Shown here piece after piece: positions 1-33,625 of a DNA stretch of 33,625 nucleotides. Numbering within the stretch: the first letter of the stretch is position 1; each line of letters starts with the position of its first letter. A program made the position numbers and the translations under genes. The DNA is from an uncultured Gammaproteobacteria bacterium (GTDB taxonomy: Bacteria > Pseudomonadota > Gammaproteobacteria > Pseudomonadales > Pseudohongiellaceae), in contig CAIOZF010000080.1 of NCBI GenBank assembly GCA_903862645.1, forward strand, positions 1-33,625, read 5' to 3'. The notes under the pieces were generated by a model that was not told where the DNA came from, ran no database searches, and saw nothing but the letters and a program-made list of their open reading frames with translations.

Positions 1-168
1 ACGCCGTGAACCCATCCATGCCCCCTTCGAGGATAAAGGGGCTCGCCTTCGCCATCCATGGCTCAGGACGGTCATACCTGCCAACCCCACACCCCCGCCA
101 ACCCCGCACTCTTGCACCACGCCACCAAGCCCAAACCAGTTTTTAAACTTGTAACCCAGGAAACCACT

Positions 169-15398: not shown

Positions 15399-15572
15399 GG
15401 CGGCATTATCCCGTAATTCGATCACCAAGGTCTACAGCGGCGTTGGGCTACCGCCACCTTCCTTGAATTGCCCTGCGGAGTGCTTTATTCTCGCCCCACA
15501 CTTAATGCGCAGAATCTTAGCCACAGGCGCAAAAAAAGCAAGAATCACAACGACTACCCAACCGAGGTCACC

Positions 15573-15602
15573 ATGAAATTAACACTTCCCGCTCTCCCCT
15601 AA
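15573..15602 (+). other. Canonical Fe-SOD start followed by in-frame TAA at codon 10
   Basis: ATG at 15573 has GAGG 5 nt upstream. The first nine codons read MKLTLPALP, matching the standard Fe-SOD N-terminus (ELPALPYAKDALEPH in many homologs). Codon 10, Tyr in the family, is TAA at 15600-15602. The frame continues AADALEPH into the open frame at 15627 with no shift. As it stands, translation from the best ribosome binding site makes only nine residues. Confidence 0.88.
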
Positions 15603-15626
15603 GCAGCCGACGCGCTCGAACCCCAT

Positions 15627-16163
15627 ATGTCTGCGCAAACCTTCAGCTTTCACCATGGCAAACACCATAATGCCTATGTGGTGAAGGGCAACGAACTGCT
15701 CGCCGACGCCAGCATCGACGCTGACACACTCGAAGATCTGGTCAAGGCCTCTCACAAAGTCGGTGGCCCGCTCTTCAACAACGTCGGCCAGTGCTACAAC
15801 CACGAGTTCTTCTGGAAGAGCATGAAGCCTAAAGGCGGCGGTGCAGCGACCGGAGCGATTGCAGCGAAGATCGATGCCGACTTCGGCAGCTATGACAATT
15901 TCAAGAAAGAATTCGTCGCCGGCGGCATCGGCCAATTCGGCAGCGGCTGGGTATGGCTGGTATTGGACGGCGGCAAACTGAAGATCGCCAAATCTGCCAA
16001 CGCCGAGACTCCGCTGACCAGCGGTGCCACGCCGATTCTGGTGTGTGACGTGTGGGAACACGCCTACTACCTCGACTTCCAGAACCGTCGCCCCGACTTC
16101 CTCGCCAGCTTCCTCGACAACCTGGTGAACTGGGACTTCGCGAACGCGAATCTCGCCGGCTAA
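15627..16163 (+). CDS. sodB: Iron superoxide dismutase, N-terminus cut by a nonsense codon
   Basis: Converts superoxide to oxygen and hydrogen peroxide. From ATG 15627 it is 178 aa; reading from 15573 through the TAA would give 196 residues, matching E. coli SodB (193). The metal ligands are intact: His in FSFHHGKHH (E. coli His26), His in CYNHEFFW, and Asp/His in VCDVWEHAYYLDF. GQFGSGWVWLV and the Gln before the second His site favour Fe over Mn. Only the first 18 residues, including the family Tyr, are lost if translation starts at 15627, and no good Shine-Dalgarno precedes that ATG. Downstream sequence shows no decay, so the lesion is recent, a sequencing error, or bypassed by re-initiation. 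It could be called a pseudogene. Confidence 0.85.
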   Translation: MSAQTFSFHHGKHHNAYVVKGNELLADASIDADTLEDLVKASHKVGGPLFNNVGQCYNHEFFWKSMKPKGGGAATGAIAAKIDADFGSYDNFKKEFVAGGIGQFGSGWVWLVLDGGKLKIAKSANAETPLTSGATPILVCDVWEHAYYLDFQNRRPDFLASFLDNLVNWDFANANLAG

Positions 16164-16172
16164 GAACCCGCT

Positions 16173-16197
16173 CTGTGGGAGCCTGCCTGCAGGCGAT
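16173..16197. repeat. REP-like element after sodB
   Basis: CTGTGGGAGCCTGCCTGCAG begins 10 bp after the sodB stop and contains the palindrome GCCTGCAGGC. It shares its blocks with the 34-bp palindrome at 4107 and the copy at 17868. It is followed at once by a separate terminator-like hairpin. Confidence 0.65.
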
Positions 16198-16203
16198 TTA
16201 AAT

Positions 16204-16249
16204 GAAGGGCCGAAGTGACGCAGCGCAAATTGTGTTGCTTCGGCCCTTC
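16204..16249 (+). terminator. Hairpin downstream of sodB
   Basis: Perfect 12-bp arms, GAAGGGCCGAAG (16204-16215) and CTTCGGCCCTTC (16238-16249), enclose a 22-nt loop. Only a short T-rich stretch (TCTCGTTT) follows, so termination may be imperfect. It could serve both sodB and the facing symporter gene. Confidence 0.6.
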
Positions 16250-22599: not shown

Positions 22600-22684
22600 G
22601 AATCCTCTCAATGTGCACGGCTTGCTCCAACAAGATTGCGTCGGGCCTGTCGCTCATGGAATGATCCTCACGCCGAGGACTTCC

Positions 22685-24055
22685 ATGACAACCAGCCAGC
22701 TCCCCATTTCAGACAGAGACCGCGATGCCCTCGAGGGCAATCTGCGGCGCTTCATTGTTTTTCGCCTGTTCTATTCGGCGCGATTCTATTACCCCGTCCT
22801 GACCATTCTGTTTCTCGACTACGGCCTCACGCTGGAGCAGTTCGCCCTGCTCAACCTGGCGTGGGCGCTGAGTATCGTGGTGGCAGAGGTGCCCTCGGGA
22901 GCACTGGCGGACATTGTCGGACGCAGGCGCCTGGTGATCTTCGCCGCTGTCATGATGGTGGTGGAGATGAGTCTGCTCGCTTTCGTGCCCATGGGAGCGT
23001 CGGGCCTGCTGTTCACGGTATTTCTGATCAACCGGATCAGCTCCGGGGTGTCGGAGGCCGCAGCCAGCGGGGCCGACGAGGCCCTGGCCTACGACTCTCT
23101 GAAAGCCCTGGGGCGTGAAGATCAATGGTCGCACCTGCTGGAGAAGACCTCCCGGGTGGTGTCCATCGGCTTCTTCGTGACCATGATCCTGGGCGCCTTC
23201 GTGTATGACCAGGCCCTGCTGAACCGCACACTGGCGCTCTTCAATCCCGACTGGCAGATCGCCCGCGAGACGGCGATTCGCCTGCCCGTGCTCCTCACAC
23301 TGCTCAGTGCCTTCGTGGTGCTGGCCACCGCGCTGGGGTTCCGTGAACTGCCGGCCGACCCGGCGTCGCAGGCAGCGGCGGGCAAGGGAGGACTCGGGGC
23401 CCTGATCGAGGCCTTCCGCCAGGTGGGCCGCGCCGCGCGCTGGATAGTGGGGCATCGTTTCGTATTGTTCGTGATTCTGGCAGCCCTGGCGCTGGACAGT
23501 GTGGCCCGGCAGTTCGTGGTGCTGGCCAGCGAGTATTACCGCCTGATCGATATTCCGGTGTCCTGGTTCGGCTTCATCGGCGCCGGCATGTCGCTGTTCG
23601 GTATCATCACGGCGCGCTTCTCTCGCTATCTGGTCAACAGCCACACCCCTGCGTTCAACTTCGGCGTGTTGTCATCCATTCTGCTCCTGTCACTGCTGGG
23701 CCTGGCGCTCGCCATTCCTGTGGGCGGACTGGTATTTGCCGTCGGCGCCTTTGCGCTGCTGGGCATGGTGCAGTTCCAGGCCAGCTTCTATCTGAACCGG
23801 GCGGTGGACTCGACCATCCGCGCCACCGTCCTCAGCTTCAAGGGACTCGCCCTGAATCTCGGGCTGGGTTTCGCCAGCCTGCTGTACACCGGCCTTGTCG
23901 CTACCTTACGTGCGAGGGCGGGAGGTCTGGCAGAGGCTGAGCTGCAAAAGCAGGTGTTCCTCGACGCCTTGTTGGCCTTTCCTCTCTATTACTTCGTATT
24001 GATGGCATTGATCATCCTGCTGGCACGCAAAGAGAGCGGACTATGGACACGGTGA
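22685..24055 (+). CDS. MFS transporter
   Basis: 456 aa from the ATG at 22685, with GAGGA about 7 nt upstream; a GTG at 22613 is in frame but less likely. About twelve hydrophobic segments are seen. The cytoplasmic loop 2-3 motif of the major facilitator superfamily is present as SGALADIVGRRRLVIFAAV (family G-x-x-x-D-x-x-G-R-R). The N-terminal ~25 residues are polar. A central loop near residue 210 (RELPADPASQAAAGKGG) separates two halves. No signature points to a substrate. The stop codon at 24053-24055 overlaps the start of a broken small frame at 24043. It lies 85 bp after the serine hydrolase gene and may share its transcript. Confidence 0.88.
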   Translation: MTTSQLPISDRDRDALEGNLRRFIVFRLFYSARFYYPVLTILFLDYGLTLEQFALLNLAWALSIVVAEVPSGALADIVGRRRLVIFAAVMMVVEMSLLAFVPMGASGLLFTVFLINRISSGVSEAAASGADEALAYDSLKALGREDQWSHLLEKTSRVVSIGFFVTMILGAFVYDQALLNRTLALFNPDWQIARETAIRLPVLLTLLSAFVVLATALGFRELPADPASQAAAGKGGLGALIEAFRQVGRAARWIVGHRFVLFVILAALALDSVARQFVVLASEYYRLIDIPVSWFGFIGAGMSLFGIITARFSRYLVNSHTPAFNFGVLSSILLLSLLGLALAIPVGGLVFAVGAFALLGMVQFQASFYLNRAVDSTIRATVLSFKGLALNLGLGFASLLYTGLVATLRARAGGLAEAELQKQVFLDALLAFPLYYFVLMALIILLARKESGLWTR

Positions 24056-24240
24056 TACTGGAATGGCTGGAGAACAATCGCGACGACGCCCTGTGGCTGA
24101 CGCCGCTGCTGGCCTTCGGCTAGGCCTGTGTGGGCATCGCGCTGTGCGTGTCCGGCTTCCTGCTGCTGATGGAAGCCGGTGTGCCTATCGTGGTGGATGG
24201 TGTGACCTTAGGCGCCGTAGGTGTCTCTGGCGTGCAGGCC
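24043..24240 (+). pseudogene. Fused gene scraps: DedA-like N-terminus and GlcG/HbpS-like segment
   Basis: An ATG at 24043 overlaps the MFS stop. The first 26 codons end LWLTPLLAFG before an in-frame TAG (24121-24123). The same frame continues ACVGIALCVSGFLLL, resembling the first membrane helix of DedA/VTT proteins, in which a Glu usually occupies the TAG position (GAG to TAG is one change). At once the frame becomes GVPIVVDGVTLGAVGVSG (about 24178-24234), which resembles the conserved PxxVDGxxxGAxGVSG core of GlcG/HbpS (haem-degrading family) proteins. The rest of both genes is missing and the sequence runs into the antisense 3' end of the saccharopine dehydrogenase gene. Family names rest on short matches recalled by eye, so they are tentative. 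Confidence 0.5.
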
Positions 24241-26957: not shown

Positions 26958-27543
26958 TCAGAACTCCGCCATGAACGAGACTTGCAGCGTTCGCGGAGAC
27001 AGGGGACGGAAGGATGCTGGGCCTTGGGTTGCCGATGTCCACTTAGGCACTCCACCCCGTGTACGCTTCCACTGCTTCCGTGTTCGTAAAGTTGCTGTAA
27101 CGCTTGTCGGTATATTTGCCCGACAGGTTAGCTACCAGCGATGAGGTCGGCTTCCAGGTGACGCCTGCGGTGAGCATCACCTTCGGGCTGTCCGGCACGT
27201 CATTGTCCCTGATCAGCACGCTGCGCGGCGTGCTGTTCTTGCCGGCTGCGCAGACTTGGTAATTGTCGTCGAAGGTGGTGTTGTTCAGCGTCAGGTTGGA
27301 GGTGAAATAGATCTGACCCCCGAGCGCTTGCGGCTTCCACGAACCCGTCAGCTCGGCGCGATAGGAGCGCACGCCTCCCACGTTCTGCGAAAACGTTTCC
27401 ATGCCGCCTGGCGCGCCGGCCAAAGGCACCGTGAAGGCCTGCAGACGGTTGTCGAACTGCGTGACATCCAGCGCCAGGGCACCGGATGCGGAGGCGGTAG
27501 CAATCAGGAGAGTGAGCAGTTTGCGGGTGAATGGCTGTGCCAT
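26958..27543 (-). pseudogene. Collapsed TonB-dependent receptor gene
   Basis: ATG at 27543, with AGGGA 5 nt upstream, opens a normal signal peptide (FTRKLLTLLIATASASGALA). It is joined in frame to what are late barrel strands of a TonB receptor: LDVTQFDNRLQAFTVPLAG, VRSYRAELTGSWKPQALGGQ, VMLTAGVTWKPTSSLVAN and LSGKYTDKRYSNFTN. The plug domain and most of the barrel are gone. The frame stops at a TAA (in AYTGWSA-stop-VDIGNP, where Tyr is expected). After a further frame-changing loss, the true C-terminus SFRPLSPRTLQVSFMAEF and stop follow, ending at 26958. So there are an internal deletion, a nonsense codon and a second deletion. It lies upstream of the NhaC and Lys1-like genes on the same strand and may once have belonged with them. 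Confidence 0.8.
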
Positions 27544-27699
27544 GACAGTCCCTGTCGAAGTCGCTGGAGCGGAGAATGTGTGGAGAGTGCCAGGGCACGC
27601 TCGCAGCATCCATGCCAATCAGCAGAAGTTCGCAATTACAAGGAATTGCGGGATTTTTAAAAAGTTGGCCGGTACTTTGTGCACTTCCCAGGCACGCTG

Positions 27700-33282: not shown

Positions 33283-33625
33283 CATGTCTTGCGGACGCAT
33301 TAGGTGACTCTCACCAATCTGCAATGCGTTGCGAGTTTCGCCAACTGGGTCAGCATAGTGCCAACAGAAAGTCGTGATACTGGCCAGGGGGGACATCCCG
33401 GGGTGCTTTTTCTAGGGGTTGGTGATCGGTCGCCTGCAGGCGACCAAAAACATGGTGTACCTGAGCCATTTCTTTAGACGTGAATTTTCCTGAAGCTGGC
33501 ACAGACGAGGCGGCCGATGACCTGGTCCGCTTCAGCGGCATAAAAGACCAGCGCCGAGCGCAGCAAAAAGACCTTGGGCTTTTTGCGGAGAGAGGGCACC
33601 GCGGAGCGGCGCAGGTCAGCCGCAG
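33283..33625. other. Terminal 343 bp without a recognisable gene
   Basis: Holds the palindrome at 33428 and a second hairpin, GCAAAAAG (33563-33570) with CTTTTTGC (33579-33586) and an inner CC/GG pair. A 63-codon minus-strand frame at 33350-33541 crosses the palindrome and matches nothing I know. The end of the window is GC-rich and may be the edge of another gene. Confidence 0.4.
33428..33445. repeat. REP-like palindrome near the window end
   Basis: GGTCGCCTGCAGGCGACC is a perfect 18-bp palindrome followed by AAAAA. Its GCCTGCAGGC core is shared with the elements at 4107 and 16173. On the minus strand it would be preceded by an A/T tract. It may end a transcript of a gene beyond the window. 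Confidence 0.65.

Follow-up and report, generated by a model that had tools for sequence, protein, structure and literature searches.

An in-frame stop at codon 10 of the only Fe-superoxide dismutase gene found in a draft gammaproteobacterial genome

The Fe-superoxide dismutase (Fe-SOD) gene described here is interrupted by a TAA at its tenth codon and is otherwise intact. We see about an even chance that this stop is real and reflects a nonsense mutation of one base that occurred very recently in the only Fe-SOD gene found, and we narrowly favor that explanation over an error in one base of the consensus sequence. The window, by which we mean the whole stretch of DNA that was analyzed, is the entire contig C80 (33,625 bases) of a 3.10-Mb draft genome that consists of 254 contigs and is 95% complete. 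Its nearest named relatives are genomes of Gammaproteobacteria and Pseudomonadales, mostly metagenome assemblies, with three labelled Pseudohongiella (L022, L023, and L053). The closest relative is L018 (the same place as G008), which shares 99% identity in the SOD and ∼91% DNA identity around the gene. Our results uphold an earlier interpretation in part: the gene does appear to encode the main SOD, efficient readthrough of the stop is not supported, and translational restart beyond it is possible but would be weak.

The interrupted gene and its N terminus

The initial annotation had described, on the forward strand, an ATG at 15573 with a good ribosome-binding site, a TAA at 15600–15602 within an otherwise intact frame, and a length of 196 codons matching the family, and each of these points was borne out. 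The ribosome-binding region of the normal start (15558–15572) contains a GAGG, and the 20 nt before the ATG pair with the 16S tail at −6.6 kcal/mol. Codons 1 to 9 (MKLTLPALP, 15573–15599) align in frame with those of all 13 congeners and are followed by the TAA as codon 10 (15600–15602), where all 13 have a Tyr codon. Codons 11 to 18 (AADALEPH, 15603–15626) offer neither a start codon nor a Shine–Dalgarno site. The intact remainder (15627–16163) encodes 178 amino acids from an internal ATG, matches PF00081 (from profile position 19) and PF02777, and stays open up to the terminal TAA at 16161–16163. With codon 10 read over, the frame has 196 codons, which is the enzyme length of the closest relative, whose protein aligns over positions 1–196 with the one internal TAA. 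Just past the terminal stop, at 16173–16199, lies a short sequence that recurs at many sites of G004, G005, and G008, a dispersed repeat. Further 3′, a hairpin at 16204–16249 on the same strand (19-nt arms, 84% complementary) is a possible terminator or repeat element.

The protein is recognizable as a member of the Fe/Mn-SOD family from both of its domains. PF02777, the C-terminal domain, scored 126.8 bits against a cut-off of 20.9, with a match over nearly the whole profile length. PF00081, searched from the ATG at 15627, scored 56.6 bits (cut-off, 27), yet the match covers profile positions 19–82 of 82 only, so this domain is not whole; the intact relative L018 matches positions 3–82 at 88.2 bits. 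The presence of all metal ligands, also claimed earlier, was confirmed in the 178-residue frame, where H9, H59, D141, and H145, which we take to be the ligands from their roles in Escherichia coli SodB, are invariant in 30 aligned sequences. A Gln contributed by the N-terminal domain and lying near the metal is a marker that distinguishes Fe-type from Mn-type enzymes; Q55 (same numbering) is invariant in the alignment. Among NCBIfam models, the Fe model outscored the Mn models and NF007832 (SodB) was the best match, with all scores below the curated cut-offs, as was likewise the case for the intact relative. The best solved relatives of the 178-residue frame are SODs, those near the top mostly named Fe-SODs. 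The window gene therefore has both domains (PF00081 and PF02777) and the metal ligands in common with bacterial SodB; unlike SodB, it has no uninterrupted frame from the conserved start, the frame being broken by the TAA at codon 10.

Comparison with relatives bore on whether the codons before 15627 belong to the gene at all. The Tyr that had been predicted for codon 10 in close relatives was found in all 13 congeners, a count that leaves aside the distant paralogs L016 and L017, and a single base separates the TAA from the codon of the closest relatives. The alternative, a start at the position of 15627 in every relative, did not hold, as all 13 congeners start at an ATG equivalent to 15573. 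The whole stretch of 18 upstream codons, with the start among them, can be aligned in frame to the 13 congeners, and codons 1–18 of G008/L018 show no amino-acid difference from the window except at the stop; on these grounds, we rejected the idea that the upstream codons are a spurious extension of the open reading frame. Judged from the alignments, codons 1–18 are a real and conserved N terminus, and six columns of this segment besides the start Met (L5, P6, L8, P9, L15, and P17) are invariant in 26 aligned enzymes. Across 80 aligned loci, the 19 upstream codons are read without a stop in 79. At codon 10, 58 of these loci have Tyr and 18 have Phe; the rows of L057, L095, and L096 are shifted one place by small length differences, and L064 is out of frame. 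A search of the family with the intact relative's protein matched 76 of 137 genomes, 72 of them near full length by row count. The other four comprise a frameshifted copy (G132), a match that reaches a contig end (G061), a distant paralog only (G083), and a 25-residue piece only (G089). Among the near-full-length matches, an internal stop occurs in the window's genome only. Both the confirmation of the stop and its uniqueness (Tyr in 13/13 congeners, no stop in 71/71 other family genomes) count in favor of a real mutation.

SOD genes in the assembly and across the family

A PF02777 profile search of the 95%-complete assembly gave one match, the interrupted gene. Cu/Zn-SOD was found in none of the 14 genus genomes, and Ni-SOD neither in the window's assembly nor in 14 control genomes; the Ni-SOD model does match 5 of 137 family genomes, which indicates that the model works. 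The proposal that this gene encodes the main SOD is thus supported to the extent that it is the sole SOD found in an assembly missing ∼5% of the genome.

SOD is far from universal in the family. No PF02777 (Fe/Mn-SOD) match was obtained in 61 of 137 family genomes, or in 39 of 92 among the good ones, in a family-level survey that covered the Fe/Mn and Ni forms (Cu/Zn was searched in the 14 genus genomes only) and included many incomplete genomes. Many family genomes apparently contain neither Fe/Mn-SOD nor Ni-SOD, and Fe/Mn-SOD seems to have been lost repeatedly. Two members carry broken copies: G089 (L245) has a short, degraded C-terminal remnant with stops, and G132 (L243) has a frameshift at an A-run together with substitutions of two tryptophans, both invariant across the 26 aligned sequences. 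The frameshift in G132, being in an A-run, could itself be an error. By eye, a similar gene lies upstream of the broken SOD in both genomes. A divergent Sod_Fe_C protein, in frames of ∼244–268 codons, occurs in G001, G006, G014, G021, G083, G100, and G127 and is absent from the window's genome.

The frequent absence of the gene (61/137) and the broken copies in G089 and G132 make a real mutation plausible. Against it, all 14 genus genomes, the window's included, retain Fe/Mn-SOD, and none of the 13 congeners has lost it; SOD loss, plausible as it is in the family, would be new among the 14 genus species examined. A partial precedent comes from Great Lakes Nitrospira, an oxic freshwater lineage described as having no SOD (PMC9239080). 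The absence of SOD in bacteria of oxic waters is common to that lineage and the window's family, with the difference that the gene of the window is still present and nearly intact.

Decoding of the stop and restart downstream

Stop-codon readthrough, which had been suggested as one way around the TAA, was not supported. The 25 gene ends tallied in the window comprise 6 TAA (SOD included), 5 TAG, and 14 TGA; since all three codons terminate window genes, code reassignment is excluded. Anticodon UUA was found in none of the 35 typed tRNA genes of the assembly (a 36th match, at a contig start, is cut and untyped), and none of the 71 other near-full-length relatives shares the stop, which argues against recoding. 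No tRNA-Tyr gene was found in the assembly, so a mutated copy acting as a suppressor is conceivable. Against this, tRNA-Tyr adjoins Gly(tcc) and Thr(ggt) in nine of nine congeners where the Tyr gene was located, and because all three are missing together from the window's assembly, the cluster most likely fell into an assembly gap. Two pattern matches in G011 that resemble a CUA anticodon were not called as tRNA genes. With TAA acting as a normal stop here, at the end of the SOD frame itself among other places, we consider it very improbable that the codon 10 TAA is decoded as an amino acid, whether by a suppressor tRNA or by programmed readthrough.

If the stop is real, translation would start at the normal site at 15573 and end after nine residues. 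At best, a small amount of N-terminally shortened enzyme would be made by ribosomes restarting at the in-frame ATG at 15627, which lies 24 nt beyond the stop. Restart at this ATG had been put forward earlier; it is possible but would be weak, as the region before it shows no Shine–Dalgarno pairing (+0.1 kcal/mol with the 16S tail versus −6.6 kcal/mol before the ATG at 15573). When 16 other starts in the window were scored alike, two or three were also without pairing, so the absence of a Shine–Dalgarno site is no proof of absent initiation. A review describes reinitiation as being regarded as common among prokaryotes and puts over 75% of the intercistronic distances of E. coli below 30 nt (PMC5972666).

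The shortened product would retain the metal ligands and lose the conserved, ordered 18-residue segment. Structure models put its start two residues ahead of helix 1. In the model of the intact relative, the residues that it would lack are a coil placed with confidence (pLDDT of 93 for residues 1–10 and 91 for residues 11–20), and the first ten residues of the shortened frame have a pLDDT of 70. Averaged over the whole model, pLDDT came to 90.5 (shortened frame) and 93.6 (intact relative), although such models cannot judge stability. Because both invariant columns and an ordered segment are lost, little activity would be expected from the shortened enzyme, and SOD activity in the cell would probably be much reduced or absent.

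A real stop might still be tolerated if restart at 15627 yielded a working, scarcer 178-residue SOD, so that the stop served as a translational dimmer. In such an enzyme, the metal ligands and the greater part of each domain would be preserved, its restart point lies ahead of the first helix, the rest of the gene is still under constraint, and the 24-nt gap falls in the range in which, according to the review cited above, most E. coli intercistronic distances lie. Weighing against it are the missing Shine–Dalgarno site, the loss of a segment with six invariant columns that is confidently ordered in the intact relative's model, and the fact that the internal Met is common to 13 of 13 congeners and hence no adaptation to the stop. 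We regard a working short enzyme as unlikely; it falls under the real-stop explanation, so the chances we attach to these explanations are not mutually exclusive. It also seems quite unlikely to us that the species is at the first step of losing its only SOD, the first to do so among the 14 genus species examined, and is living on a trace of restarted enzyme.

Recent mutation or base error

Substitutions in the gene constrain the age of the stop. Relative to its closest relative, the SOD gene has nine synonymous and three non-synonymous codon differences, the stop counted. When these were polarized with G004 and G005, five synonymous and two non-synonymous changes fell on the window lineage, one of the latter being the stop itself. 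With the stop left out, one of six changes is non-synonymous, which by simple arithmetic has a chance of ∼0.005 if three-quarters are expected to be non-synonymous without constraint. From this pattern, the remainder of the SOD gene is judged to be strongly constrained and without decay, which leaves three possibilities: a very recent stop, a gene that still works, or a wrong base. By the same evidence, we find it hardly credible that the gene is an old pseudogene: broken copies do occur in G089 and G132, but lineage-specific changes number 7 in 588 bases of SOD (1.2%) against 1018 in 18,576 aligned sites across the window (5.5%), and five of the seven are synonymous. Bacteria do carry recent nonsense alleles and early pseudogenes. 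The SOD of the window would resemble these in having one disabling base in a gene that is otherwise intact and conserved; it would differ from recent nonsense alleles generally in that the stop hits the only SOD gene found.

The main competitor of a real mutation is that the TAA came about through an error in one consensus base of the metagenome assembly, or that the consensus took up a variant of a minority strain, and that a normal 196-residue Fe-SOD is made. We give this somewhat less than an even chance. The stop is one base away from the codon of the closest relatives, the remainder of the gene is intact and conserved, all 14 genus genomes keep the gene, and no other SOD was found in the assembly. 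Moreover, by simple arithmetic, ordinary consensus error rates would give each draft genome roughly one wrong nonsense codon. The case for a real mutation, in turn, depends on a single base in a lone draft assembly (254 contigs), and the constraint without decay that we described (five synonymous changes versus one other non-synonymous change) fits an error equally well.

We looked for signs that errors are common in the contig. Private changes are twice as many in the window lineage as in that of G008 (1018 versus 509 of 18,576 sites), and the non-synonymous share is somewhat larger (171/704 codon changes versus 64/347, SOD excluded), in a comparison where seven genes had no or almost no alignable sites and 450 SOD sites were used. 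Both excesses would follow from a longer branch or from weaker selection; base errors could contribute, and to that extent the excesses count against a real mutation and toward an error. The share of C>A-type changes, on the other side, is much alike in the two lineages (124/1018 and 55/509), which favors a real mutation. A scan for internal stops over 236,276 bases (the window and 20 contig starts) gave 22 candidates among 234 stops with coding-like sequence upstream, using a hexamer score that was trained on the same sequence and a requirement for 120 coding-like bases on each side, such that stops near gene ends are missed. By eye, only the SOD stop and a stop at 24121 resemble interrupted genes, most of the other candidates being gene ends or antisense frames. 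Apart from these, no mid-gene nonsense is evident by eye in the 236-kb sample; this lack of a crop of mid-gene stops speaks for a real mutation and against an error. Taken together, the change spectrum, the stop scan, and the codon changes gave no clear support for a crop of base errors in the contig. An error would be expected at a random position, and codons 1–10 make up 5% of the 196, though this is a weak argument; for a real mutation, the extreme N terminus with an ATG 24 nt on would be where nonsense is most easily tolerated.

The stop at 24121 belongs to the one other disrupted gene that we read from a list of the open reading frames of the G004, G005, and G008 loci set against the window. 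It occupies 24043–24175 on the forward strand, is the start of a small membrane-protein gene, and overlaps the end of a transporter gene (22613–24055). A TAG at 24121 takes the place of a codon that is Glu in G004 and G008, and resemblance to the intact relatives is gone near 24175; on sequence grounds, this marks the gene as a remnant and not as a case of a lone point error. A second broken gene in the same window means that gene decay occurs in this lineage, and we count it in favor of a real mutation in SOD.

Several features of the contig were recorded alongside. On the reverse strand, 27043–27618 holds a 191-amino acid frame of which residues 53–187 match PF00593 at profile positions 295–413 of 436 (the late part of a TonB-dependent receptor barrel), a probable receptor remnant. 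Both ends of the window (1–100 and 33525–33625) carry sequence that is present in many copies among relatives, probably the reason why contig C80 stops there. A viral_contigs scan returned six loci at 39–41% identity, and a plasmid search returned 68 records, one of which covers at least 80% of the query, at 68.5%. At the level of records, the literature searched contained no account of the codon-10 stop allele.

Should the base be an error, the case is a reminder that one base of a draft genome can remove an enzyme from annotation. If the base is real, the gene would show, while still nearly intact, how the loss of a central antioxidant enzyme begins, and its occurrence in an aquatic family whose members often have no such gene would provide a way to ask which conditions make SOD dispensable.
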